Assembly (NCBI GenBank): GCA_963681505.1 | Contig: OY811984.1 | Location: 3,008,358 to 3,072,357, forward strand | From: Eunapius fragilis | Lineage: Eukaryota > Porifera > Demospongiae > Spongillida > Spongillidae | Reading direction: 5' to 3' | DNA length: 64,000 bases | Notes under the pieces: generated by a model | What the model was told of the DNA's origin: nothing | The model's input: the letters and a program-made list of their open reading frames with translations, nothing else | Databases searched by the model: none | Program-made: the position numbers and the translations under genes | Shown here: positions 9,308 through 64,000 of the stretch, piece by piece | Layout: the number at the start of each line of letters is the position of its first letter | Position numbering within the stretch: the first letter of the stretch is position 1

Positions 9308-11443
9308 TCATGCACTATGCAATGCCACCTCACCTTTTTCTATTTCAGACATTTCTTCAGGTGGACCTCTATTCTTGCAGGGGTTGCCCTTGTGACAGTG
9401 ATTGCTGCAATATATTTTGTTTTTCCTACAAGAGCATCTGAAGTTATCACATTTTTCCGCCTTGCAATTACATTTATTGTCTGTGAACGAATTCCAAGGT
9501 GCCTGATTTTTTGCAGCTTCTTTCAAACTTATTCGAGGTTCATTTTCCCATCCATTCAATGGTATGTCATACTGACCTTTATAAGGCTCTAAATCGCCAG
9601 CCTGATAACATCTCTGAATTACTCCGGATTTACAACGGAGACGATGTAATGCTTGTGCTTTACCAACTACCTCGACAACGATACATGGTAGTCGCAATAG
9701 GTCTGTGCAACTCCGATCAATGCGCGGTATCCGAACACTGACATGCTCTCCAACTCTAAACTCACGAACTGTCGAAAACTTTTCTTGCATCTTTAATGCA
9801 GTTTTCATATAGTTTATGTCCGCTTTCTCTCGTACGAGTCTGTGCTTCTCAATTGTCGCGAGTTGTTTTTGTCTGCCTACAAATTGATCTTCAGTTTTTG
9901 CTTCAGAGTTCAAAATGAGAACTGTTTTATCCTTCTCTTCTGTTTCAGACTCAGAGTTTCAACATCTACTCACACTATCACATAGTTTTGAATTAGTGCT
10001 ACTATCATTGCTGGTCACATCCTGAGGATTGTTAAAGATTGTATGGGAGCAGGAACTGCGTTGGATGGCATCACTCAAAGTTGGTGAACTGTCAAGCATG
10101 CTTTCTTTGACAGATGGGGGACTGTGATGGATATTATCAACGACAGTTGGAGCACTGTCATGGATGCTATCATGAATGGATGGGGAGCTGTGTTGGACAG
10201 TATCAAGGACTGTTGGGGAACTGTCATGGGTGCTATCAAGGGAGCTGTGTTGGATAGTAGTTGCAGAATTGTGTTGGAGAGTCAGTTCAACAGTAGTGCG
10301 ATCCACATCAGATGTGTCCTGGGCACTCTCCGTCTCACCAGTTAATACAAGATCCTCTTCATTGATGAGTCCCTTAAGTCTTGCATCTGGTACCACAACT
10401 GATCTTGGTGGTTGCCCAAACACAAGTTCAAATGGAGTGTGCTTTGTGGAGCTATGCACTTGAGTATTGATTGTATCTACATAATCATAATTATAACTAT
10501 AAAGCATCAACATGCTTATATACATTTGCAAGGCAGAACTTACAGACAATATGTGGTAGCCAGTGAGTCCAATGAGGAGAATTAGATGCTGACTCTGCAA
10601 TTCTGGAACTCATCATTCGTTCCAGTGTATAGTGAGCTTGTTCCACCAGGCCTTGCGATTGAGGATGTCGCGGCCAACCACTCACTAGCTGTACAGCTCA
10701 TGGCCAAGTGGCTAGAACGTCCTCAATCAAATGATTCACAAATTCTCTCCCATTGTCCCTATGCAGAATAGTAGGGAGACCAAATATAGGGAAAACCCAC
10801 TCCTCAAGAGCGTTAGTCACTTCTTTGGCAGTCTTCTGGGGTAGTGGATATGCTAAATTGAACTTTGACCAATGGTCAACAATATGCAAGATCCACTTAT
10901 TGCCATCATGAGGCAAGTGCCTCACGTCAATCAGATCAATCTGTAAAGTGGATAATAAAAAATTTTGGGCAGAAAAATATACTGACCTGTACACATGAAA
11001 AGAATCCATTGGCCACTTTAGGCTTCAGTGGAGGTTTGGTTTTTTGAGGCATACGAAGACTGCAAGTTTCACAGAGTTTAATGCATGAAATGCTCTACCA
11101 CACTTCTAGGAACATGCGAGTACAAAGACTGAACCTAGACAATTAGAATCACCTGCATGCATGTAAGCATAAGGAACATTTAAAACGTGCAAACCTTGGC
11201 AAATGTCTTTTTTGAGCCCGCATGTAGACAGTCTTTTGAGTGAACCTGCTCCAATATGCTGTAAAACTCCTCAACTGTTGCAACTCTGCGAGAAGCTTTC
11301 ATCATAGTGCGATCAGTTAAATTCTGTATAGCGAGGTGTAAATATATGACTACATGCGACGCCGTATACGCCGTATACGCCGTATACGCTGAATGAAATC
11401 TTACCTGCTTTTCTTCCTTCAAACCGGTCGTCCGGTTAATCAA
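9308..11443 (-). pseudogene. Ginger-type integrase/transposase, disabled
   Basis: A DDE integrase resembling KRBA2/Ginger proteins. The HHCC finger is split by an intron near 11115-11180 (VEEFYSILEQVH, CLHAG, then CETCSLRMPQKT after a one-base frameshift). An intron at 10941-10986 (46 nt) joins NGFFSCVQ to IDLIDVRHLPHDG, which carries the first Asp. IVDHWSKF and HRDNGREF (second Asp) follow, and then GWPRHPQSQGLVEQ with the Glu. A 67-nt intron (10477-10543) joins WLPHIV to INTQVHSSTKHTPFELVFGQ. The C-terminus has FRVGEHVSVRIPR and a CXC-like CNCKAEKCDNFRCSCRKN cluster. TGA stops at about 10705 and at 9959 interrupt otherwise continuous frames. Catalytic residues survive, so inactivation looks recent. 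Confidence 0.78.
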
Positions 11444-26341: not shown

Positions 26342-28524
26342 TCATTTGCCAGCTCTCAGTAGCAGTGACCTTTGACACTTCAAGCATGAGACACAGTGTT
26401 GCTTTAGCTCTCCAAATTGTATCACATAGAGGAGACTTACTGTTGGAAGGAGGCCCAACAGCACATAGGATAAGATACTTGTGCCAAAATGGTTCAATGA
26501 TTGATAAGCTTTCTTTTCACTGCCACAGTCTCTACTTGCACTAACACCTGCTGCTTCACAGGCAAAGTATGCCAATAGAGCATCAGAAAATGAGCTAATT
26601 GACCTAACATTTAAGACAAATGCTACCAAGCCCATTGATCCAAAGATGATGTAGTAGCCAAAGAGAATCTGTAGTTTTCTCTCCGCTGAACCAAAATGAA
26701 TTTGAGATTTGGATGTACTGCCATGCTAATGGAAAAGGGCTTGAGAATGTCATTGACATTTATAAGAATGAAATTACCTTTATAACCGTAACCATTACCA
26801 TGACTAGTAATGATATACCAGTAGCCATGATGACACTGATGGGGAGGGCAAGAGTGTAGTAAGCTGCTTCACTGCTTCTTGATACACAGACATCAGGAGG
26901 TTGACTGCTAATCACAAACCCCCCAGTTGAGAAACTAACAATGACAGGGATAACTGGAAATAACAAAGCCAGCAGTACAACCAACAAGTGGATTATCTTC
27001 TTCTTCTCATATAATTTCACATGGAAAGGAAATATTATTTTCAAAAATATTGCAGCCAGGTGACATATCCACCATATTGACAATTGGAGAATTGCATAGT
27101 AGTATACAGAACCTGAAACAGGTGATATATTTGTATATAACAGCAGCAATTCTTTTTTTAAACATGAGAATGGGCATTACAATCTTGTTAGCGCAAAAGA
27201 ATGAATTTAGAACATCACATTTCATGAGTTGTAACTATGTTTTAGTGAAGCAAGGATCAATCAACCACTAATTTCAATTATCCAATTTGTCTTAATTATG
27301 TTGTTTAAACAAATTCAATCGCAATTTTTTAAATATAATGCATGCTACATTAAGTTCTACCACAAACAGCAGCGAATAAAAATTTCCAAAAGCTTTTAGC
27401 CATCTTTACAGCAACAAATGCATTGTTTGATTTGGTCACAAAACTGGTAAAAATGCTGTATGAAACAACAGCGTCAAATTAAGAGTCCTTGTAGTAGGAA
27501 TAAGTATACAAAATGCCTTCTTGCTAGTTCACTTACCAATCAGTGAACAAAATACAGTTGCATTACTTAAAGCTTCAATCAAATTCTCTGAACTGCAGTG
27601 GAGTGTGGTTCGACCAGCAAACGATATGAGTATGAAAGTAGCTGGAGAAATAAAAAAATGTTCAACATAAATGCTGCAATAGTTACAGTCCATTTTAAGT
27701 AGTTCATGTATATTGTGATGAATTCATACCAAGAATTATCACAGTGAAACCCATATAAAATATTATAACAGCTGGAAATGAGAACCTGGGAAGAAATTTA
27801 AAAAATCAGTTAAAAGTTGCACAGAGAGTGCTGTAGTTAATTACATGTGTTTATGCCAAATGCAAGAGAACAATAAAACAAGGATTCCAGATCCAAGTCC
27901 TATGACCGCTGATAGGATAGCAAATATGTCCACTGCAAGCGATATTTCGTCATCATATTGCTTCCATTTTCCACATTGTGGTACACATGTTCCATTACTA
28001 AAGAAGAATGGGTCAGCGCAGATTGTCCGAGTTGAATTAGGAGACAGATTTGACCCGCCAATAACCTCTAAAGAAGCATTTTTAACAATAAAGTAGTAAC
28101 GGAACATGCAGGAGTTACCTTTGCAAACACCTTCTCTTGCAAGGGCAAGGCTTTCACATTTAGGAAGTTTCTCCTTTACACTTGAAATGGCTAATGCCTT
28201 TTGCCACTCATCTTTGCATACCACTGTGCTGATCTCAATACACCGATCTCTGCTAGGTCTGGTCACTGTTCCATTACCATCGCACAAAGGGAACAGGTAC
28301 AGACACATGAATGGTATTAAGGTTGATGTACACTTTTCTGTGGCATGAAGTAAGGGGAGGCCATTAATAATGATTTGAGCAAAGGTCTCAGTGACACTTT
28401 GATCAATATTTGCTGCAATCTTCACATTACTGTTATCCTGCTGAACTCCAGAGAGGCAATCTCTGGCTTTAACCAATGCATGTAGGCATGTTGGTTTTGA
28501 GTATGTGGCACAGCCAGTTGAATT
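26342..28524 (-). CDS. Frizzled-like receptor, copy A
   Basis: Seven-helix membrane receptor with an extracellular Frizzled-type cysteine-rich domain. Exons: 27845-28524, 27730-27785, 27537-27641, 26778-27112, 26342-26725, all with GT/AG introns in phase, about 519 residues without the signal exon. Exon 1 encodes the CRD (FMCLYLFPLCDGNG, RCIEISTVVCKDEW) and helix 1 (ISLAVDIFAILSAVIGLG). Exons 2 and 3 give helix 2 and a Cys-bearing loop. Exon 4 gives helix 3 (YYYAILQLSIWWICHL), 4 and 5. Exon 5 gives helix 6 (LQILFGYYIIFGSMGLVAF), helix 7 and a short tail ending LLLRAGK. Class F receptors bind Wnt-type ligands through the CRD. The KTxxxW motif used to recruit Dishevelled after helix 7 is not present, so signalling may differ. 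The first exon is not in this interval (see 30701-30916). Confidence 0.85.
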
Positions 28525-28627
28525 CTGCAGTGTGAAAAAAATTTATTTTTAATGTGTTTCTTGTCATTCGCAGTTCATTCTGAACTGCTGGTTTTGTGTT
28601 TGATACATTACAAACTGTTTTGCTAAT

Positions 28628-50459: not shown

Positions 50460-52623
50460 TCATTTGCCAGCTCTCAGTAGCAGTGACCTTTGACACTTCA
50501 AGCATGAGACACAGTGTCGCTTTAGCTCTCCAAATTGTATCACATAGAGGAGATTTACTGTTGGAAGGAGGCCCAACAGCACATAGGATAAGATACTTGT
50601 GCCAAAATAGTTGAATGATTGATAAGCTTTCTTCTCACTGCCACAGTCTCTACTTGCACTAACACCTGCTGCTTCACAGGCAAAGTATGCCAATAGAGCA
50701 TCAGAAAATGAGCTAATTGACCTAGCACTTAAGACAAATGATACCAAGCCCATTGATCCAAAGATGATGTAGTAGCCGAAGAGAATCAGTAGTTTTCTCT
50801 CTGCTGAACCAAAATGAATTTGAGATTTGGATGTACTGCCATGCTAATGGAAAGAAAAGGGCTTGAGAATGTCATTGACATTTATAAGAATGAAATTACC
50901 TTTATAACCATAACCATTACTATGAGTAGTAATGATATACCAGTAGCCATAATGACACTGATGGGGAGGGCAAGAGTGTAGTAAGCTGCTTCACTGCTTC
51001 TTGATACACAGACATCAGGAGGTTGACTGATATTCACAAACCCCCCAGTTGAGAAACTAGCAATGACAGGAATAACTGGAAATAACAAAGCCAGCAGTAC
51101 AACCAACAAGTGGATTATCTTCTTCTTCTCATATAATTTCACATGGAAAGGAAATATTATTTTCAAAAATATTGCAGCCAGGTGACATATCCACCATATT
51201 GACAATTGGAGAATTGCATAGTAGTATACAGAACCTGAAACAGGTGATATATTTGTTTATAACATCAGCAATTCGTTTTTTTAAACATGAGAATGGGCAT
51301 TACAATCTTGTTAGTGCCAAAAGAATAATTTTAGAGCATCACATTTCATGAGTTGTAACTATGTTTTAGTGAAACAAGGATCAATCAACCACTAATTTCA
51401 ATTATCCAATTAGTCTTAATTATGTGGTTTAAACAAATTCAATCTTAATTTATTGCATGCTACATTAAGTTCTACCACAAACAGCAGCGAATAAAAATTT
51501 CCAAAAGCCATTAACCATATTTACAGCAACAAATGCATCGTTTGATTTGGCCACAAAAAAATCTGGTAATTATGCTGTATGAAACAACAGCGAGAGTCCT
51601 TGTGGTAGGAAATGTCTCCTTGCTAGTTCACTTACCAATCAGTGAACAAAATACAGTTGCATTACTTAAAGCTTCAATCAAATTCTCTGAACTGCAGTGG
51701 AGTGTGGTTCGACCAGCAAACGATATGAGTATGAAAGTAGCTGGAGAAATAAAAAAATGTTCAACATAAATGCTGCAATAGTTACAGTCCATTTAAAGTA
51801 GATCGTGTATATTGTGATGAATTCATACCAAGAATAATCACAGTGATCCCCATATAAAATATTATAACTGCTGGAAATGAGAACCTGGAAAGAGATTTTA
51901 AAAATCAGTTAAAAGTTGCACAGAGAGTGCTGTAGTTAATTACATGTGTTTATGCCAAATGCAAGAGAACAATAAAACAAGGATTCCAGATCCAAGTCCT
52001 ATGACCGCTGATATGATAGCAAATATGTCCAAGGCAAGCGACATTTCGTCATCATATTGCTTCCATTTTCCACACTGCGGTACACATGTTCCATTACTAA
52101 ACAAGAATGAGTCAGTGCAGAATGTCCGAGTTGAATTAGGAGACAGATTTGACCCGCCAATAACCTCTAAAGAAGCATTTTTAACAATAAAGTAGTAACG
52201 CAACATGCAGTTGTTACCTTTGCAAACACCTTCTCTTGCAAGGGCAAGGCTTTCACATTTAGGAAGTTTCTCCTTTACACTTGAAATGGCTAATGCCTTT
52301 TGCCACTCATCTTTGCATATCACTGTGCTGATCTCAATACACTGATCTCTGCTAGGTCTGGTCACTGTTCCATTACCATCACATAAAGGGAACAGGTACA
52401 GGCACATAAATGGTACAAAGGAGGATGTACACGTCTCTGTGGCACCCAGTAAGGGGAGGCCATCGACAACAAGCTGGGCTGTACTTTCACTGGCTTCTTG
52501 GTCAACATTTGCTATGATCACCACATTGCTGATGTTCTGATGCATTCCAGATAGGCAAGCCCTGGCCTGAATTAATGCCTGCTGGCATGTTGATTTTGAG
52601 TAGTTAGCACAACCTTTTGAAAT
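50460..52623 (-). CDS. Frizzled-like receptor, copy B
   Basis: Exons 51944-52623, 51829-51884, 51636-51740, 50900-51234 and 50460-50843 are 680, 56, 105, 335 and 384 nt, exactly the lengths of copy A, and all remain open. The domain order is the same: cysteine-rich domain (FMCLYLFPLCDGNG, QCIEISTVICKDEW), helix 1 (MSLALDIFAIISAVIGLG), helices 2-7, short tail LLLRAGK, no KTxxxW motif. From the PFMCLY motif onward the proteins are nearly identical, but the first 70 residues of this exon differ at roughly 30 positions. No signal-peptide exon was found upstream: homology to copy A stops at the exon border, and hairpin and TIR elements occupy the DNA from 53.0 kb on. It may lack its first exon. 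Confidence 0.83.
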
Positions 52624-53144: not shown

Positions 53145-53316
53145 TTTCCTCTTTTAAATTTTATTGTCGATGATTTCTGCGAATACTGGCACAAGTGCTC
53201 ACAAGTCATAGTTATGAAGTAGCCTCTTTAATTGAAGAACTGACACTTATGCAGTTCCCCCCCCCCCCCCCCCCCTCCCCCCGAAGTACTTCTATTACCG
53301 CTGCATAATTCGAATC

Positions 53317-54660
53317 AGGAACTACGATAGTAGTTCCTGTATAGGAATTGGCCCGGGTCGTGAATATCATTTAAAAAACGCGACCCGCGTACCGAGAAAC
53401 GGATTGTGTTGCTCTTTGTTGTTATCGAACCAGAAGGCAAAGACGGTCATTTTAATGTTTTTTTCAAGTCTTCAAACTGTTTGCTTTAAGCAAAAAAGGT
53501 CGTGTTTTACCTCGTCCCCAGGCCAAATCTTCTCCGTCGTCGTCGTCGTCGTTGTCTTCTAATTCTCGGCTGAGCATAACTCGGGATAGGAACGGTTTTA
53601 AAGAGCGCAAGTTATATCAATCGCTTTAGAATCCGAAGGCCATCTTCAAGTATCAGATGTATGAATAAAGCATAAAACTGACATACGTAATCATTACGTA
53701 ATGCGAAGTGAAGCGATCCCATGGCGACATTTACGTATATTTAGAATTGTGCAAACAAAGAGGAGAGCAGACGACGTGTTAGAATTCTCCCGCGTTCCTT
53801 AAAGTGATCCCAAACAAAAGCGGGCGTCTGCTCGTGACGGTATTTGAAGCGGAGGAGGGGGGGGGGGGGGGGGGGGGGGGAGGGCACTTGCCAGTATTAA
53901 TAACCGATAAAAAATGATAATTAAAAAATAGAGGAAACATGTAAAGAAAAACATTCTCTAACGAGAAAGTTGGTGGGATATAGAAATTGGAGGCAATGGT
54001 GGTGTTAAAAGGAAGGGAACAAGGTTTTGAGAAAAGGGTAATGAGACAAATCCTATATTGAGCACGAGTAAATGTAACAGAACCAAACGAAGTGCTAAAT
54101 ATAGTATTCTTGTCTCATTACCCTTTTCTGAAAACCTTGTCCCCTTCCTTTAAACACCACCATTGCCTCCAATTCCTATATCCCACCAACTTTCTCGTTA
54201 GAGAATGTTTTTCTTTACTTGTTATACTTGAGTGTTGCCATGGGAAGGCTTCAATTTAGCACTCCGCATTACGTAATGATTACGTATGTCAGTTTCATGC
54301 TATATCTGATACGTGAAGATGTCCTTCCAGGAAATGCTAAAGCGATTGGTATAATTTGCGCTCTTTTAAACCATTCCTATCACGAGTTATGCTCACCCGA
54401 GAAGAATTAGCAGACGACGACGACGACGACGGAGAAGAATTGGCCTGGGTACGAGGAAAAGCACGAGCTTTTCTGTTCTCTTAAGGCGAACAGTTTGGAG
54501 ACTGGAGCAAAACATTAAAATGACCGTCTTTGCCTTCTGGTTCGATAGCAACAACAAAGAATATCCGTTTCTTGGTACGCGAGTTATACGCGGGTTGCGT
54601 TTTAAAAAATGATTTCATGCACGACCCGGGTCCTATATAGGAACTACTACCGTAGTTCCT
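53317..54660. mobile_element. Hairpin-ended element, two-armed copy
   Basis: Inverted arms of about 420 bp (53317-53740 and 54228-54660) each end in a hairpin: AGGAACTAC-GATA-GTAGTTCCT and AGGAACTAC-TACC-GTAGTTCCT. Shared features include the 'gacccgggtc' box, 'cagaaggcaaagacggtcattttaatg', a GACGACGACGACG run and 'attacgtaatgattacgta'. Between the arms are a poly-G run (53858-53880) and a nested MITE. No coding. Confidence 0.8.
53938..54222. mobile_element. Hairpin MITE nested between the arms
   Basis: Full-length member, closest to 29097-29383. The right arm of the host element starts directly after it, as in the 29 kb copy. Confidence 0.88.
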
Positions 54661-54662
54661 GA

Positions 54663-55003
54663 TTGTCATAACATCCACATAGCGGTTTTGCGGTCGTGCA
54701 GTTATCCAGATAACAGATTTGCTGTCGTCCAGATCCGCGATTTGCGGACGTGCGCATGTCCACATCCGCGATTTGCGGACGTGCGCATGTCCACATCTGC
54801 GATTTGCTGTCGTCCAGATCTGCGATTTGCTGTCGTCCAGATATGCGATTTGCTGTCGTCCACATCCGCGATTTGCGGACGTGCGCATGTCCACATCCGC
54901 GATTTGCGGACGTGCGCATGTCCAGATCTGGGATTTGCTGTCGTCCAGAACTGCGATTTGCGGACGTGACGTGATCCAGATCAGCGATTTGTTGTGATCC
55001 AGA
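54663..55003. repeat. Left TIR with modular iterons
   Basis: Two module types alternate: GATTTGCTGTCGTCCAGAT plus 'ctgc' (23 nt) and a 31-nt unit whose core GGACGTGCGCATGTCC is a near-palindrome. Order: one 23, two 31, three 23, two 31, then divergent units. Open frames across it are artefacts of the repeat. Confidence 0.85.
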
Positions 55004-55004
55004 T

Positions 55005-57400
55005 ATGGCCCGAGGAGACGATCCCGAGATTGACCGTACGTATTTATTTTTTTTTTTTTTTTTTCGTTCCTTCTGCTCGCTAACGCGCACATTTTTCTTT
55101 CCACTTGTGCGTAGGATGGATACTCAGGTACTGGAGAAGAAGAAAACCGGTGGCTATTATTCTATCATATCTGAGACTGTTACACCGTGTGGCTGTCGGG
55201 TGGGTTTCAGGGCAGGTAGATTAGACTGCTATAAGTTGCGGCATTAATTACGCAGTACCACTTGGCTAAAGAAAAGAATGGCTGCACTTGGCCTAAGGAG
55301 GCGAATGTGTTGCCAAACACCTATCGCTTTGGTTTATGCCGCCATCAAGGTGCGTGCTTGAGTACATGTACATGTGTCGTGAACCTTTATTTATAGGTTT
55401 ATCCTTATTGTAGATCGAGGTACAAACCTCAAACGGCCTGTTGGGGTACCGAGCTATGTGGACACTGCTACAAACCAAATACGACTTTACTGTGAAACGG
55501 TATGCATTATTTCGTGTTCTTAAATGGTCCTCTAATTTTGTACAACAGGTGTACTGTAATGATGCTGCTAGCTATGGCTGATCCTAAGGGTACTGCACAA
55601 AGGAAGAAGCACAAACTCCAAAGGCGAACCTATCAGTCCAAGGTCGCATGGTGATGTTGCATGCATACATGTATGCTACATTAATCTCAGTGGTTTTATA
55701 GGGTCCAAATTGGTGTTGGCACTTAGATGGGTATGACAAGTTGAAACCATTTGGATTTCCTATTCATGGTTGTATTGATGGGTAAAGTTTAATATATATT
55801 TATTAACATCCCAGTGTGATTTTGATTCTATACATTTCTTTACTAAAGGTTTTCTCGTAAAATACTGTGGCTGGAGGTTGCTACTACAAACAACGACCCA
55901 TATGTTATAGCTCGGTATTATTTACATGCTGTTTACAAGCTGGGTGGTATGTGTTTGTATGTATGTACATGTACCATATAAACTAAGGCACTCTGCTGCT
56001 TATAATTGTAATCTGAGCTACATTTTATTCTGTGTTTCCTTGCATTTGTACTTAAGGATGTCCCACACTCGTCAGGGGAGACTGTGGCAGTGAAAATGTT
56101 GTTGTAGCATTATGCCAAATGATTTTAAGACACAACCATACTGACAGGAATTCTGGAAGGAGTAGTTTCTTATTTGGAAGCTCCATCAGAAATTCAGTGA
56201 GTATATTGGTAATTATTTATGTGGTTTAATTTATTTAATATGATTAATATTTCATAACAATTATAAAGTAATGAAATGTATAAGAGTCAGGAGTAGTGGG
56301 AGATGAAAAAGATGGAGGCTGCATTTCCCCTTTGTACCACCACTGTAAAGCACTGGATCAGGTAGCTGTTGCTTTGATGTCACAGTTGTGGCTGAGAGCC
56401 TGCGACCTACATCTGTAGCTCTCTGAGAAAGAGGACTATAAGTACTCCTGACATTTCAATGGCAATAGGGGTGAAACACATGCCTGGATGTCTTTCCAAA
56501 TAGGAGTACTTAGCCTTTTTCTCGTCCTCTACCTGACTAGCAACAGTACTGCTGTCATAGTGGAATGAGAGGGGGAATAGGTGTTAGAACATATGGCATC
56601 ACAAACCAAAAGGTTACCGCTTTCCATGGAACCATCGGGACGTTTCCCATCAGAGTGGTCTACATTAATGGGTTCCAGTTTGGATGGGATGTGTGAAGTG
56701 GACAGGGCTCGGTGGAATATGTGGTTTGAATTTTATGTGAAAAATGATTGCAGCGAATAGAAAGCTGGTGGTCTCAACTAAGAAAATCAAAAAGTGATTG
56801 GTGGATTAACTTATTTAAGGTCAGTTTACATACCTAATTGTATGTGACTTAGGTTGCAACTTTCAACTGTAGAAACTTGTTGCTGACCATCTATATGATC
56901 CTGATAACCTGTTGCAACGGTATATCCCATTGCTGTAATATTGTCATGCTTTCATGTATTAAATTTGCAGTCATATTGCTGGATTTGTATTCTTACCTAT
57001 ACTACAAAAAGAATTACATGAATTCAAAAGGCATTGGAACAGGCACAGAATACGTAAGAATAGATTTGCAAGTTGTCCTAGTGGAGCTCCAGAAGATCTG
57101 TATTATCTCTCTGCATATCAACGTAAACATGCATGTTAAAATATTAATATTTGTATTACTATTTGCATTACAGGCATTGGTGCTCAGAATTGTACGAAGA
57201 TGATAAGTCCTGAACATCTCAGTCGTTGTATCGAAAGGTGCAGCTATGATCCTCCAGCATTTTATCCTCCTGAGTTTGAGATCTTGGCAACTAGGGCACT
57301 GTTTGTTACCTTGCATATTAAGCAACAAGATATAACTGTATATAATTGCAAATATGTGTACTGTTGGCTAGCAGTTGTTTTAGATGCTTTAGTAAATTAG
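55005..57400 (+). CDS. Integrase-core (DDE) protein, multi-exon
   Basis: Likely transposase of the element. Clear exons: up to 55349, 55414-55499, 55549-55642, 55702-55781, 55849-55946, 56057-56196, 56754-56819, 56873-56919, 56971-57122 and 57174-57400, all joining in phase. Residues in order: LGLRRRMCCQTP, GLLGYRAMWTLLQTKYDF, KLQRRTYQSK, GPNWCWHLDGYDKLKPFG (first Asp), GCIDGFSRKILWLEV, LVRGDCGSENVVV (second Asp), RIESWWSQLRKSKSDWW (Glu), then HIAGFVFLPILQKELHEFKR and HWNRHRIRKNRFASCPSG. This is the eukaryotic integrase-core family seen in fish, corals and sponges, distinct from gypsy integrase. The start is uncertain: ATG at 55005 with a donor C/gtacgt is plausible, but 55110-55250 could not be joined cleanly. 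No stop or frameshift was seen from 55270 on. Confidence 0.82.
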
Positions 57401-58045
57401 TGATTAAATTGTAATTGTTATTGTACTTTGTTTATTTTGTGTCAACCTGTACCTTGTCCCCCCTCATCCTTCACTACACGTGTCTCGTCCCCCCACATCC
57501 TTCATTACATGTGTCTCGTTTAACGTGGTTGGTCAGGGTAGAAGCCCGAAGGGTGCCACCTGCCATAGATGTATGACAGGAAAATCTGTGTACAAGATAC
57601 AAGCTATACACAAGAGGACCTTCTCAAGAATATATAGAAGTACAATACCTGGAACCAGACAAAGGAACACTCTTGTTTGTTGATAGTTTGTTTAGAGGGG
57701 AGGGTTGCAGACAGAGAGGCAGGCTTGACCTACTAACCTTTGACAAAGCCTCCTTTTAACACAATATAAGCTTTCCCATGCCCCATGTAAGCAGGGAAGG
57801 ATTAAGTGCACAACCATTGCCCTTCATCAAAACATTAAACATTGTTTACTCCGTAAACAAAACCCTTATCTCTGAATAAGATTATGAACCATATCAACAT
57901 TAACTTTGTTGTTATCATAATGGTACACACACAGTGCGTGTATGTATGCATATTCATGTAGAAAATATGTGTACTGTTGGCTAGCAGTTGTTTGTCATCA
58001 ATAAATATTATGACACTTAAAATGCATCACAATAGTTATAGCACA
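57401..58045. other. Spacer between convergent genes
   Basis: 57420-57830 is repeated inverted at about 62350-62700. Otherwise AT-rich with no coding. Both genes end here and a short 'aataaa'-rich context is present. Confidence 0.6.
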
Positions 58046-61000
58046 TTACAGTTCTTTGAGACTATTAATAACTTCAGCTGCAGTTGGGCGCTCGGATGCT
58101 GCATGTGCAGTGCATCTGGTACATATATTTCTGTACATAAGAGGTATATGGGCTGTTGCTGGTGTCTGGGGAGGTGAACCACAAACTTTACCAAACAGTT
58201 CCAATAAATCTACATTTTCCCAGACTCTTTTCCCACCAAAAAGTTCAATAAGTAGACATCCATATGAATATATATCTGCCGGTGATGATCTTTTTGCTGG
58301 AACAAACATTTCAGGTGCTTTGAATAAGGGAGTACCTGCGCCTTGCCCTTGTGATGTATGCAATGATGCAACTACATTTTGCAACTTTGCAATTCCAAGG
58401 TCACAAATATATGCCTGACCTGTCACAGGAACCACCTATGAATACAAATGTAATTGATAAGGGGGCTGCACATTAATTAATGCTAACCATGATGTTTGCT
58501 GGCTTGATATCCTGGTGGATTACAGCAGGGTCATGCGTGTGCATGTAATTCAGCCCCTGTGCTATATCCATGGCTATCTTCACCTTAATGCTCTCACTTA
58601 GCTGGATGTAATGTAGAACATGATATTCACAAAACATATGTTGCACTAAGCTTACATCCAAACATTCGACAAATAAAATCTTGTCAAGGCTCTTGCCATC
58701 TATGTATTCCATTATTAGGAGGATACTCCCTACCTCAATTGCAACACCAATCAAAGGGACAATGTTAGGGTGCCGAAGAGTTCTACACACAGCGTATGTG
58801 TATAAAATGTACAACAAAATGAATAACAGTAAGATGAATTTCAATCTCCTGTAAGGTGAACGTCAATTATTTTGGATTGACGTTCACCTTACAGGAGATT
58901 GACATTCTTCTTACTGCTACATGTATACAGTGAATGGTTTAAATTGACCTGTGGATTTGAGCTTCCTTTAATGTAATCTCCTTCGTGTTCATGTCAGGTA
59001 GAGGTACAGATTTCACAGCAACATCATCATTTAGGTATGTACCCTTGCACACAACCCCAAATGTGCCCTGGCATATAACACTTCCAATCGTGATAGAATG
59101 CCTTGCCAGTATCATAGGTTCTGAAAAGGTTTAGTCAATTTTCAGCTATCTGTGATTGTCATAACTTACCCACTGAGGTGTCATTTTCAGTCGAATGTTC
59201 TTCTGTTATACATGTATACGTTCAGCAAATATTTAAGGAGATACCTAAACATTGTCCTGGATATAATTTTACCTTCAGTTAGATCTATGACATTGCTGTT
59301 GACTGATCGGCTTACACCTAATAACAGAAGTGATAATAATGTACATTGTTATGACAAAAATCTGAATCTGACAATAATAGACACCCACCTCCATCTCTGT
59401 GTGTACCTATTTTGGATGATACTAAATATCAAACATATTTATGTATACCTACTCCACTTCTTGAGGTCACCATGACATCACCAATATATGGATAAACACA
59501 CCTACCTCTACTCATGCGTCCACCTGATTTGGTGACATGACCATCATCATCATCATCACCACTTTGGTCTGCATAAGGATGATACTAAATATCATATTTA
59601 TGTATACCTACTCCACTTCTTGAGATCACCATGACATCACCAATATATGGATAAACACACCTACCTCTACTCACGCGTCCACCTGATTTGGTGACATGAC
59701 CATCACCATCATCATCACCACTTTGGTCTGCATAAGGATGATACTAAATATCAACATACTCCACTTCTTGAGGTCACCATGACATCATCAATAAATGGAT
59801 AGAAACACCTACCTCTACTCATGAGTCCACCTGTTTTGGTGTCACCTTTAACAGTTTCACCTGCATATAGAATGATCACAAAAGTGAAAGGGATGTTTGG
59901 ACACATACTTTCCCTTGTGCGTGCTCTAATTGGGGTCTTGCCACCTCGGTCTGCAAAAGGAATGATCATATAAATGGAAGGGACATTTATGGAAACACAT
60001 ACCTTTACTGATGCGTCCACCTGTTTTGGTGACATGACCATCACCATCATCATCACCACTTTGGTCTGCATAAGGATGATACTAAATATCAACATACTCC
60101 ACTTCTTGAGGTCACCATGACATCATCAATAAATGGATAGAAACACCTACCTCTACTCATGAGTCCACCTGTTTTGGTGTCACCTTTAACAGTTTTACCT
60201 GCATATAGAATGATCACAAAAGTGAAAGGGATATGTTTGGACACATACTTTCCCTTGTGCGTGCTCTAATTAGGGTCTTGCCACCTCGGTCTGCAAAAGG
60301 AATGATCATATAAATGGAAGGGACATTTATGGAAACACATACCTTTACTGATGCGTCCACCTGTTTTGGTGATATGACCATCACCATCACCATCACCACT
60401 TTGGTCTGCATAAGGATGATACTAAATATCAAACATATTTATGTATACCTACTCCACTTCTTGAGGTCACCATGACATCACCAATAAATGGATAGAAACA
60501 CCTACCTCTACTCATGCGTCCACCTGATTTGGTGACATGACCATCACCATCATCATCACCACTTTGGTCTGCATAAGGATGATACAAAATATCAAACATA
60601 CTCCACTTCTTGAGGTCACCATGACATCATCAATAAATGGATAGAAACACCTACCTCTACTCATGAGTCCACCTGTTTTGGTGTCACCTTTAACAGTTTC
60701 ACCTGCATATAGAATGATCACAAAAGTGAAAGGGATATGTTTGGACACATACTTTCCCTTGTGCGTGCTCTAATTAGGGTCTTGCCACCTCGGTCTGCAA
60801 AAGGAATGATCATATAAATGGAAGGGACATTTATGGAAACACATACCTTTACTGATGCGTCCACCTGTTTTGGTGATATGACCATCACCATCACCATCAC
60901 CACTTTGGTCTGCATAAGGATGATACTAAATATCAAACATATTTATGTATACCTACTCCACTTCTTGAGGTCACCATGACATCACCAACAAATGGATAGA

Positions 61001-62263
61001 AACACCTACCTCTACTCATGCGTCCACCTGATTTGGTGACATGACCATCACCATCATCATCACCACTTTGGTCTGCATAAGGATGATACTAAATATCAAA
61101 CATACTCCACTTCTTGAGGTCACCATGACATCATCAATAAATGGATAGAAACACCTACCTCTATTCATGAGTCCACCTGTTTTGGTGTCACCTTTAACAG
61201 TTTCACCTGCATATAGAATGATCACAAAAGTGAAAGGGATATGTTTGGACACATACTTCCCCTTGTGCGTGCTCTAATTAGGGTCTTGCCACCTTGGTCT
61301 GCAAAAGGAATGATCATATAAATGGAAGGGACATTTATGGAAACACATACCTTTACTGATGCGTCCACCTGTTTTGGTGATATGACCATCACCATCACCA
61401 TCACCACTTTGGTCTGCATAAGGATGATACTAAATATGAAACATATTTATGGATACCTACATCCACTTCTTGAGGTCACCATGACATCATCAATGTCAGT
61501 GGAAGTACTTTCAACATCTGACTATAAAAAGAAGTGCTCAAATGATGCAAGAACATGACATCTGCATACTTACTGGGATATGGATTCCTATCACCATGCG
61601 GGATAGTTTTTGCATTCCACCGATTTCTGCAAAAAATCCTCCCAGGCTCCATGGTCTGTCATTTTGTAGAGGTGCATCTAGTATTCTCCCATTACTAATA
61701 ATCAAGCTGCATGATTTTTCATCAGATTCATGACACCATGCCTGGGCTGCTTTTTTGAGAACAACTTGGTATGTGTCATTGGATGTGAATCCTGGTATTT
61801 TAATGTTGTCACTGCAACGCTTAAACCTTCCATTTTTGCACTTTTCCATCCTACAGACTGTTAACTGCATGATATATAAACCCCATATATTAAAATTTAC
61901 TTGCACCATATGCATAAAGAAAACTGTTAGAAAGGACCTTGTTACATATAAATAAGGCGCCTGAAGGATGAGGTATAGTACAGCTATAAATTTTCTAATA
62001 CTTACGCCTAACATCTCTGCCTTTTTTTTCTCCGTGCGCTTTACCCTTGGTGCAGAAAACTTCTCAGCTCTTGCCTGGCTGCAATGCTTTTTGTATGTCT
62101 TTACTACAGTATCAAAAAGCGCTTCATCGTCGTCGTCATCTTTAAGGCGCTTGTCACGTTTTTTCATTTTCTGTAAACTCAAATTCACTTTTTTTTGGAA
62201 TGCTTCTCGTTCGTCCTCATTACAATTGCTACCGCTACTACTGCTGCATGCACTGTCGTCCAT
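58046..62263 (-). CDS. Protein kinase with micro-exon repeat linker
   Basis: Exon 1 (62006-62263) encodes MDDSACSSSSG and a KKMKKRDKRLKDDDDDE charged stretch. Exon 2 (61574-61864) encodes an unrecognised domain (KIPGFTSNDTYQVVLKKAAQ, PWSLGGFFAEIGGMQKL). Then come 16 micro-exons (59506-61425) and 59273-59317. The kinase domain occupies 58949-59120 (QGTFGVVCKG loop, DDVAVKSV lysine, KEAQIH), 58656-58782 (LRHPNIVPLIGVAIEVG), 58488-58601 (AQGLNYMH, HQDIKPANIM) and 58046-58435 (CDLGIAKL, APEMF, PADIYSYGCLLIELFGG). Catalytic Lys, Asp, Asn and metal-binding Asp are present; HRD is HQD and DFG is DLG. It looks like an active kinase of the TKL/RIPK type. The joint between exon 2 and the first micro-exon (candidate exon from 61521) is not resolved. 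Confidence 0.8.
59506..61425 (-). repeat. Tandem four-exon cassette, 504-bp period
   Basis: Each cassette holds, in transcript order, exons W (63 nt), Z (42), Y (48) and X (63), separated by short introns, all starting with 2 and ending with 1 base of a codon. From 61425 down: WZYX, WZYX, WZY (X missing, spacing drops to about 350 bp), WZYX, X. Peptides: W DQSGDGDGDGHITKTGGRIS, Z DRGGKTLIRARTRE, Y SETVKGDTKTGGLMSR, X DQSGDDDGDGHVTKSGGRMS. Unit-to-unit identity is very high, so expansion is recent. Confidence 0.85.
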
Positions 62264-62339
62264 TGCACACGATACGGCCAGGATATGAATTAATCAAAGC
62301 TTGCTATGTATATATACTGTTAAAATTGTTTTCAATTTG

Positions 62340-62810
62340 TGATCACAGCCATACGGATGAAGGGCAATTGTTGTGCACTTAATCCTTCCATGCTAACATG
62401 GGGCATGGGAAAGCTTATATTGTGTTAAAAGGAGGCTTTGTCAAAGGTTAGTAGGTCAAGCCTGCCTCTCTGTCTGCAACCCTCCCCTTTAAACCATCTA
62501 TCCCAAACTGGAGTGTCCCTTTGAATGGTGTTCTTAGGAAGGTCCTATTGTGTATAGCTTGTATCTTGTACACTGATTTTCCTGTCATACATCTATGGCA
62601 AGCAGCAACCATCAGGCTACTACCCTGACCAACCTCATTAAACGAGACACATGTAGTGAAGGATGAGGGGGAATGAGACACATGGCTTGATAGGTGCCCC
62701 AACAGGCCGTTTGAGGTCTGTACCTTGATCAACTAAAAAGGATAAATATATTCAAATCTAGGTGTCAGCATATACCAAGCAATCAGTGTTTGGCAACATC
62801 TTTGCCTGCC
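62340..62810 (-). pseudogene. Inverted, internally deleted copy of the integrase gene
   Basis: On the minus strand 62810-62696 matches 55300-55446 (coding end of one exon, intron and 'caaacggcctgttgggg'). It then jumps directly to sequence matching 57470-57830 (3' flank). About 2 kb with the whole catalytic core is missing. A 94-codon frame crosses it by chance. Confidence 0.7.
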
Positions 62811-63554
62811 AACAGTGATAGGCTCTTGCTTTGCTCCCACTCCAGAAGAGGCACTCCCTGAGGTGCTGGTCGAGTCCAGGGCCTGCATCATGGCCAGCTT
62901 TCTGTCACTGCACAGTCATATACCCCTGCATATGAATGCACACACACTCACCACACAATAAACCTTTGCATCGTATGCATGCTGTATAAAAATTTATAAC
63001 TAATCCTAAACGCAGCAATTCCTGAATCACATATAATATGTTATATTATTGAACAACAGGGCTCAAGGAAGAATATGCATGGGACCACAGTGCAATGGTT
63101 CCAGAACACTTTAGCACTCTCCGTTAGCAGTGTACATCTTACACACATGCAACTGCACCACCCACTACCCATTACGTTCGGAGAAGACCTGTGCTGAGAC
63201 TCCAGCTCTCACCAATTGCAGCCACACAATTACCCATGTAGGAACCTAAGCACCAAGAAAACAGCTAAAAGTACAGAATACTTGGTACTAACTTTCCCAC
63301 TTTCAATAATTAAAGAGGCCCATACTCTCTCCTAGCACCTGAAGACACTTGCAGGCACGGCGCAGCCCCAGCTGTGGAGCAGCAGCTGTTCACAACCAAC
63401 ACCATAGGCAGCCATGATTGTCCATGCACTGCAAATAGACCGCAGCTATATGCAGATATTTAAATTTACTCTCGTTGCCAAAGGCCATCACCGCAAGATT
63501 GAGTAAAGATAGTGCGTTTAAAAATATGTTGCACCACAGCATATCGCTGATCTG
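62811..63554. other. Interior of the 9.28 kb element, unassigned
   Basis: No domain or long frame. It lies upstream of the kinase gene start and next to the right TIR and could hold the kinase promoter; no specific site recognised. Confidence 0.4.
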
Positions 63555-63945
63555 GATCGCTGCAAATTGCTGATCTGGATCACAGCAAATCGCTGATGTG
63601 GATCACGTCACATCCGCAAATCGCAGATCTGGACGACAGCAAATCGCAGATCTGGACGACAGCAGATCGCAGATCTGGACATGCGCACGTCCGCAAATCG
63701 CGGATGTGGACATGCGCACGTCCGCAAATCGCGGATGTGGACGACAGCAAATCGCAGATCTGGACGACAGCAAATCGCAGATCTGGACATGCGCACGTCC
63801 GCAAATCGCGGATGTGGACATGCGCACGTCCGCAAATCGCGGATGTGGACATGCGCACGTCCGCAAATCGCGGATCTGGACGACAGCAAATCTATTATCT
63901 GGATAACTGCACGACCGCAAAACCGCTATGTGGATGTTATGACAA
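63555..63945. repeat. Right TIR with modular iterons
   Basis: Inverted version with the same two modules in a different number and order: reading inward from the end, one 23, three 31, two 23, two 31, two 23 and divergent inner units. Confidence 0.85.
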
Positions 63946-64000
63946 CCGCGACCTACCGGGCCACCATAGTGGGGGGGGATGGGTGGGTGGGTGGGGGGGG
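63946..64000. other. Right flank, G-rich
   Basis: Short flank ending in poly-G and (GGGT)n. No gene. Confidence 0.5.

Follow-up and report, generated by a model that had tools for sequence, protein, structure and literature searches.

Can a protein kinase be a working part of an animal DNA transposon, or does it merely lie between transposon ends? DNA transposons normally carry a transposase, perhaps together with a DNA-binding or DNA-modifying partner. The question is raised by a stretch of 64,000 nucleotides from the sponge Eunapius fragilis (C14:3008358-3072357, hereafter the window), the final 9.3 kb of which is a single transposon copy, and which was searched against the host assembly (219 Mb, 24 contigs). 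An earlier note on this DNA had placed an integrase gene and a convergent kinase gene between matching inverted ends, and the ends, the Pfam domains and the opposite strands of the two genes bear this arrangement out. It is highly probable that the element is a copy of an IS3EU-type cut-and-paste transposon encoding a DDE transposase and a TKL-like kinase with a ubiquitin-like N-terminal domain, the two being long associated; this estimate covers identity and association, not the job of the kinase. As judged from sequence comparison, the unit moves as a whole, one kinase clade occurs in several diverged families of such elements, and the pairing is common to E. fragilis and Ephydatia muelleri.

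The element is delimited by outer inverted arms at 54652-54813 and 63795-63956 (162 nt at 95% identity), followed inward by a second pair at 54812-54967 and 63633-63788 (156 nt at 96% identity), with subterminal repeats of 23 and 31 bp in the terminal inverted ends. The left terminal inverted repeat (54663-55007, + strand) includes these subterminal repeats and lacks the 23 outermost bases found in other copies; a separate repeat adjoins it at 54662, so the left end cannot be used to look for a target duplication. The right terminal inverted repeat (63530-63968, - strand) has the complete end, TATGGTGGCCCGG..., and comparison with other copies gives the full terminal sequence of the element as TATGGTGGCCCGGTAGGTCGCGGTTGTCATAAC. 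Because those copies show the full end sequence, the right boundary lies at 63968 rather than at the 63945 given previously, while the left start at 54663 is kept. A chance inverted repeat is ruled out by the occurrence of the end motif in the genome, where 253 forward and 223 reverse matches with at most one mismatch (476 in total) stand against none in either direction for a reversed control pattern. The left end had no match in a plasmid collection. The repeat that directly adjoins the left end, ~1.35 kb long at 53314-54662, has palindromic ends (TCAGGAACTAC.. / ..GTAGTTCCTGA) and a relative at L024:4637-5598 (84.5% identity over 977 columns).

Exon models of both genes are predictions from homology and splice signals. 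The integrase/transposase gene (55116-57397, + strand) has 11 exons, at 55116-55199, 55257-55346, 55414-55500, 55553-55639, 55702-55782, 55850-55942, 56059-56196, 56754-56816, 56876-56917, 56972-57115 and 57176-57397, coordinates that denote in-frame codons with splice edges accurate to a few bases. Its product matches PF24764 (rva_4) with an E-value of 1.5e-35, with rve and HTH_21 below the cut-off, and contains what we take to be the D, D and E catalytic contexts. The kinase gene converges on it from the opposite strand (58049-62263, - strand), with a start exon at 62006-62263, a ubiquitin-like exon at 61574-61864, variable linker exons, of which the short ones were read by eye only, and kinase-domain exons at 58951-59121, 58656-58781, 58488-58601 and 58049-58435. 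All 17 placed exons (11 integrase, 6 kinase) are open.

By its sequence, the window gene is a conventional (eukaryotic protein kinase, ePK) protein kinase. The spliced model matches PF00069 with an E-value of 9.5e-43; at E-values up to 0.1 the Pfam scan returned Pkinase, PK_Tyr_Ser-Thr and a sub-cut-off ABC1 match only, and no alpha-kinase domain. The nearest solved kinases found by phmmer against the PDB, by sequence search alone, are CTR1, TAK1, MLK and RAF of the TKL group. A Gly-rich loop, VAxK lysine, catalytic HxD, DxG and APE are present in the window kinase and in those of three further loci, L051, L052 and L053. The N-terminal domain (61574-61864, - strand) is predicted to be ubiquitin-like from an AlphaFold2 model with a mean predicted local distance difference test score of 85.9; it matched no Pfam family at E-values up to 1, and sequence search against the PDB gave nothing credible.

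Does this unit move as one? Two copies, L009 (C18:4235437-4243407) and L010 (C2:13885177-13893147), show 100% identity along 7,972 bp between unrelated flanks, from which we conclude that the whole unit moved. A third, L012 (C18:3440496 onward), is 99.99% identical over 7,360 bp with one end lost, and L016 and L017 are older copies of the window family with both ends present. The earlier note had asked, as support, for several loci at which such ends enclose the two genes; loci of this kind exist, and the suggestion that the unit is mobile with the kinase inside is upheld by 7,971-bp copies recurring between different flanks; the same recurrence rules out that the two ends of the window element are separate solo insertions. 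In all, the kinase lies between paired matching ends at nine loci, namely the window (left end incomplete), L009, L010, L016, L017, L051, L053, and one pair each on C2 and C3.

The association was then counted over the genome by clustering all 47 kinase matches and 30 matches of the ubiquitin-like (UBL) N-domain into 45 loci, alongside 84 integrase clusters. An integrase exon lies within 10 kb of 17 of the 19 loci with both kinase parts, 6 of the 19 kinase-only loci and 1 of the 7 N-domain-only loci (24/45 overall), the expectation for random places being ~0.8%; an excess of 17/19 over that figure argues against a one-off capture. Many of the low-scoring kinase-only loci are probably ordinary kinases. 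All of these are minimum counts: the queries derive from the window family, and two genome searches scored part of their candidates (40/65 and 150/157). Eleven of the 42 rows of one search were left out of the clustering; the eight strongest are window-family copies seen in other searches, and the others (C8:7461947, C8:7465618 and C8:7462077) each lie beside an included row. The two kinase+UBL loci without an integrase within 10 kb (C16, and C4/L052, the latter with surroundings covered in part) would be expected if a host kinase family existed beside which transposons merely insert, co-occurrence then reflecting insertion preference. We consider this very improbable, as it is contradicted by the position of the kinase between matching ends at nine loci, by identical whole units at unrelated places, and by target duplications around the whole unit in all four sister-family cases described next.

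TACGG..CCGTA ends are found in four diverged elements that carry a kinase, each flanked by a target duplication of 6-7 bp: TGGTTC (L051, C11), CATATG (L053, C4), CGCTCC (C2:8523359-8530233) and GTTACCC (C3:14263691-14276481). Among element pairs outside the window family, 8/9 are flanked by a duplication (4/4 kinase-bearing, one of them of 7 bp, and 4/5 others). Gene orientation varies: the window and L051 types are convergent, the L053 type has both genes on one strand, and the C3 element is divergent. The expectation that kinase-bearing units are flanked by target duplications thus holds for the sister families and fails for the window family, where none of the five copies with both ends has one.

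What happens at the target in the window lineage is suggested by L010 and L017, which lie in dispersed repeats. Using only paralogous sites that show both flanks, we found 146-167 bp between the flanks for L010 (3/3 scripted sites), with two additional sites of this type on C19 (broken tandem matches), measured by hand outside the scripted count, at 166 bp each. For L017 the value was 171-195 bp in 9/10 sites and 1,019 bp in the remaining one. The host element of L013, a kinase-less copy, is ~341 bp short relative to L051, the sole comparison for that site, and no site with the two flanks together could be located for L009 or L016. Because paralogous sites hold 146-195 or ~341 bp more, insertions of the window lineage seem to be accompanied by loss of target DNA, which would fit capture of an excised element at broken ends or a widely spaced joining of both ends. 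The dinucleotide TA was considered as a target duplication of the window family and is disfavoured: the ends begin with TA and by themselves would allow it, yet a simple TA duplication leaves the 146-195 bp of extra target at the L010 and L017 paralogous sites unexplained.

How old is the pairing? A protein search scored 7,997 candidates out of a database of 5.8 billion and gave 1,586 matches, of which the best seven belong to E. muelleri; in five of these seven predicted proteins PF24764 scores above the cut-off and accompanies the kinase. When the integrase portion of one E. muelleri protein served as query, ten proteins were returned, nine of them kinase-bearing, including the query and five already known; this search was limited to 0.55-1.75 times the query length and so disfavoured integrase-only proteins. 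Between the kinase domains of E. muelleri and L053, identity is 81-83%. Two E. muelleri kinases and those of the window, L051, L052 and L053, six in all, group in one clade (99/99) relative to 16 others, these outgroups being 16 of the 113 non-Ephydatia proteins among the matches listed; the L052 kinase may lie outside any element. The window, L051, L052 and L053 kinases are 46-60% identical to one another and all keep VAxK, HQD, DLG and APE. In all six pairs, the proportion of synonymous differences (pS, 0.69-0.89) exceeds that of nonsynonymous differences (pN, 0.27-0.37), as it does in the three pairs that exclude L052 (pS 0.74-0.80, pN 0.29-0.37). Capture of a host kinase locus, as the earlier note had allowed, is in its recent form rejected as the main reading, because both the diverged families and E. 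muelleri have related kinases. The public E. muelleri gene models P0001-P0005 and P0127-P0129 join kinase domains to integrase domains of transposon type within one predicted protein, and such models may inflate sponge kinome counts.

Besides the two kinase+UBL loci without an integrase, several observations weigh against the favoured reading of the element or against a required role of the kinase. One is the lack of target duplications in the window family. Another is the kinase-less copy L013, which has both ends, window position 57992 being joined to ~62687, and an integrase with one stop; L011 is kinase-less in the same way by blastn, with one end in the stretch examined and a junction not readable by exact matching. 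The segment missing from these two copies corresponds to 57993-62686 of the window. Moreover, only 24/84 integrase loci lie within 10 kb of a kinase or UBL match, which leaves 60/84 with none, a count in which kinases too diverged for window-family queries may be missed. The kinase is therefore dispensable in cis, as seen from L013 with both its ends and from the integrase loci without a kinase, and the idea that the two genes always co-occur gives way to one of frequent association. Ends enclosing only the integrase, with the kinase at a fixed syntenic place in related species, had been named as a refuting outcome; integrase-only copies do occur (both ends are present in L013, one in L011), but kinase-bearing units lie at many places in this genome rather than one.

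Constraint on the kinase inside the window family also looks weak. The ratio of nonsynonymous to synonymous substitution rates (dN/dS) is 0.35 for L016, 0.75 for L017, and 0.79 and 0.47 for two parts of the C16 locus, against 0.18-0.35 for the integrase in four window-family copies, and the window and L010 kinases differ by five amino-acid changes and no silent ones. The kinase ratios partly reflect decay, since L016, L017 and C16 carry stops or gaps. These ratios, the kinase-less copies, at least one with both ends, and the 60/84 integrase loci without a kinase match would all be expected of passive cargo, that is, a host kinase caught once between transposon ends and carried without use to the element. 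A passenger should decay, yet diverged families at 46-60% identity, their silent sites saturated, still have open frames and the catalytic residues, as does E. muelleri; we hold passive cargo to be quite unlikely.

The arms of some elements raise a different possibility, in which two inverted integrase copies mobilise the kinase between them, like insertion sequences with resistance genes, and the single-integrase forms are later degenerates. Convergent integrase copies do lie on both sides of the kinase at C6 (L034) and C9, the C9 copy showing no end motif at the estimated positions of its ends. The terminal arms of L051, 1,839 bp long and 100% identical, both hold integrase exons, with all integrase parts opposite an open kinase. 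The right arm of the window element (62687-63462, - strand) contains two short degenerate inverted integrase-exon remnants (59 bp at 86% and 51 bp at 76%), and that of L053, where the integrase is on the kinase strand, has an inverted 28-residue match to the first integrase exon at 86%. From the facing integrases at C6 and C9 and the remnants in the two right arms, either a palindromic ancestor or a series of arm-to-arm copying events seems likely. Copying one arm onto the other would equally explain the long arms, and no complete second integrase is left in the window or in L053, so that we regard a composite transposon as doubtful.

If the element is instead a two-gene IS3EU-type transposon, as we favour, its transposase would cut and paste the element, and its kinase would be produced by the element, be enzymatically active and work in trans, docking a partner through the ubiquitin-like domain; short copies and those lacking the kinase would depend on proteins supplied by full copies. 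Substrates of the kinase may be host proteins involved in silencing or repairing the element, a serious possibility that we place somewhat below an even chance, or, with slightly less probability, the transposase itself. For the MOS1 transposase, phosphorylation by PKA is described as blocking complex assembly and nuclear entry, the kinase there being the host's (PMC3902898). More tentatively, and with low confidence, we propose that transposition or survival of IS3EU elements depends on an element-encoded kinase activity, fungi and sponges having filled this slot independently, the former with alpha-kinases and the latter with a ubiquitin-like/TKL kinase, and that the window lineage shifted to target deletion (146-195 or ~341 bp, with no duplication). 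If this were true, IS3EU would be the first superfamily of DNA transposons, as far as we know, in which a signalling enzyme of the element itself serves a core function. Retention of the kinase through family splits and its presence in two sponges, together with a different kinase in fungi, point to phosphorylation controlling transposition or escape from silencing. The element provides a two-gene system open to testing and yields lineage-specific kinases, which annotations, such as that of E. muelleri, may count as host genes.

Within the window element, a tandem array of short linker exons (59414-61494, - strand) has units of 159 and 338 bp by Tandem Repeats Finder and a spacing of ~504 bp by blastn. 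Linker-exon copy number differs between the window and the 7,971-bp copies, and it is mainly the extra repeats in this array that make the window copy the longer one. Such variation between transposon copies is a possible source of protein length variation. The element also has an inner inverted repeat, with a left unit at 57477-57828 (+ strand) and a right unit at 62356-62684 (- strand), upstream of the kinase start, that are ~85% identical over the whole and 96% over the best 147 nt; shorter related pieces occur near the kinase in L053-type elements and are scattered elsewhere in the genome. Outside the element, the window holds two closely similar reading frames on the - strand (27841-28542 and 51940-52623), the second of which matches the Fz (Frizzled) domain, and adjacent long frames at 9308-10609 that we take to be retroelement-like.

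Is this, then, a new type of element? IS3EU transposons are described as having TA..TA termini and usually 6-bp target duplications (PMC10045372), and the families described from rust fungi have TAYGG..CCRTA ends, all TET-positive ones among them pairing the transposase with an oppositely oriented alpha-kinase gene (PMC12730594). The sponge elements resemble these published accounts in their TA..TA termini, their TAYGG..CCRTA ends (TATGG.. at the right end of the window element), their long terminal inverted repeats, what appears to be a DDE integrase-like transposase and the 6-bp duplications of sister families (PMC10045372, PMC12730594), and a wholly new element type, as the earlier note had entertained, is therefore not borne out. 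Because its own target duplication is absent (0/5), the window lineage is called IS3EU-type by its ends, its transposase domain and its sister families. It departs from IS3EU in lacking that duplication and in resolvable sites that are short of target bases, and the sponge elements differ from the IS3EU/GingerRoot transposons, a Repbase superfamily, in carrying a conventional kinase with a predicted ubiquitin-like domain.

The fungal TET-positive elements are alike in setting a kinase gene opposite the transposase within the same superfamily, and unlike in that theirs is an alpha-kinase, another superfamily by the published description, with a TET/JBP gene between, whereas the sponge element has PF00069/PF07714 (PMC12730594). 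No TET/JBP gene was seen among the window-element frames read, no dedicated search having been run. A kinase in an IS3EU element thus has a precedent in the fungal elements as described, and we found no report of a conventional one in the open-access full-text literature, where several searches were broad and Repbase entries lay outside the scope. That two unrelated kinase superfamilies occur within one transposon superfamily is to us the most thought-provoking point. Styx of Zymoseptoria is similar in having an IS3EU-type transposase with acquired genes and a length of 7,927 bp; its acquired genes are given as GATA-motif, CCHC-motif and DUF3577 proteins, and that account of Styx names no kinase among them (PMC10853768). 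On the kinase side, the closest solved relatives by sequence are RAF, MLK, TAK1 and plant CTR1, from which the sponge kinases differ in having HQD and DLG instead of HRD and DFG, and in an N-terminal domain that matches no Pfam family. RAF, too, couples a ubiquitin-like domain, its Ras-binding domain, to a kinase.

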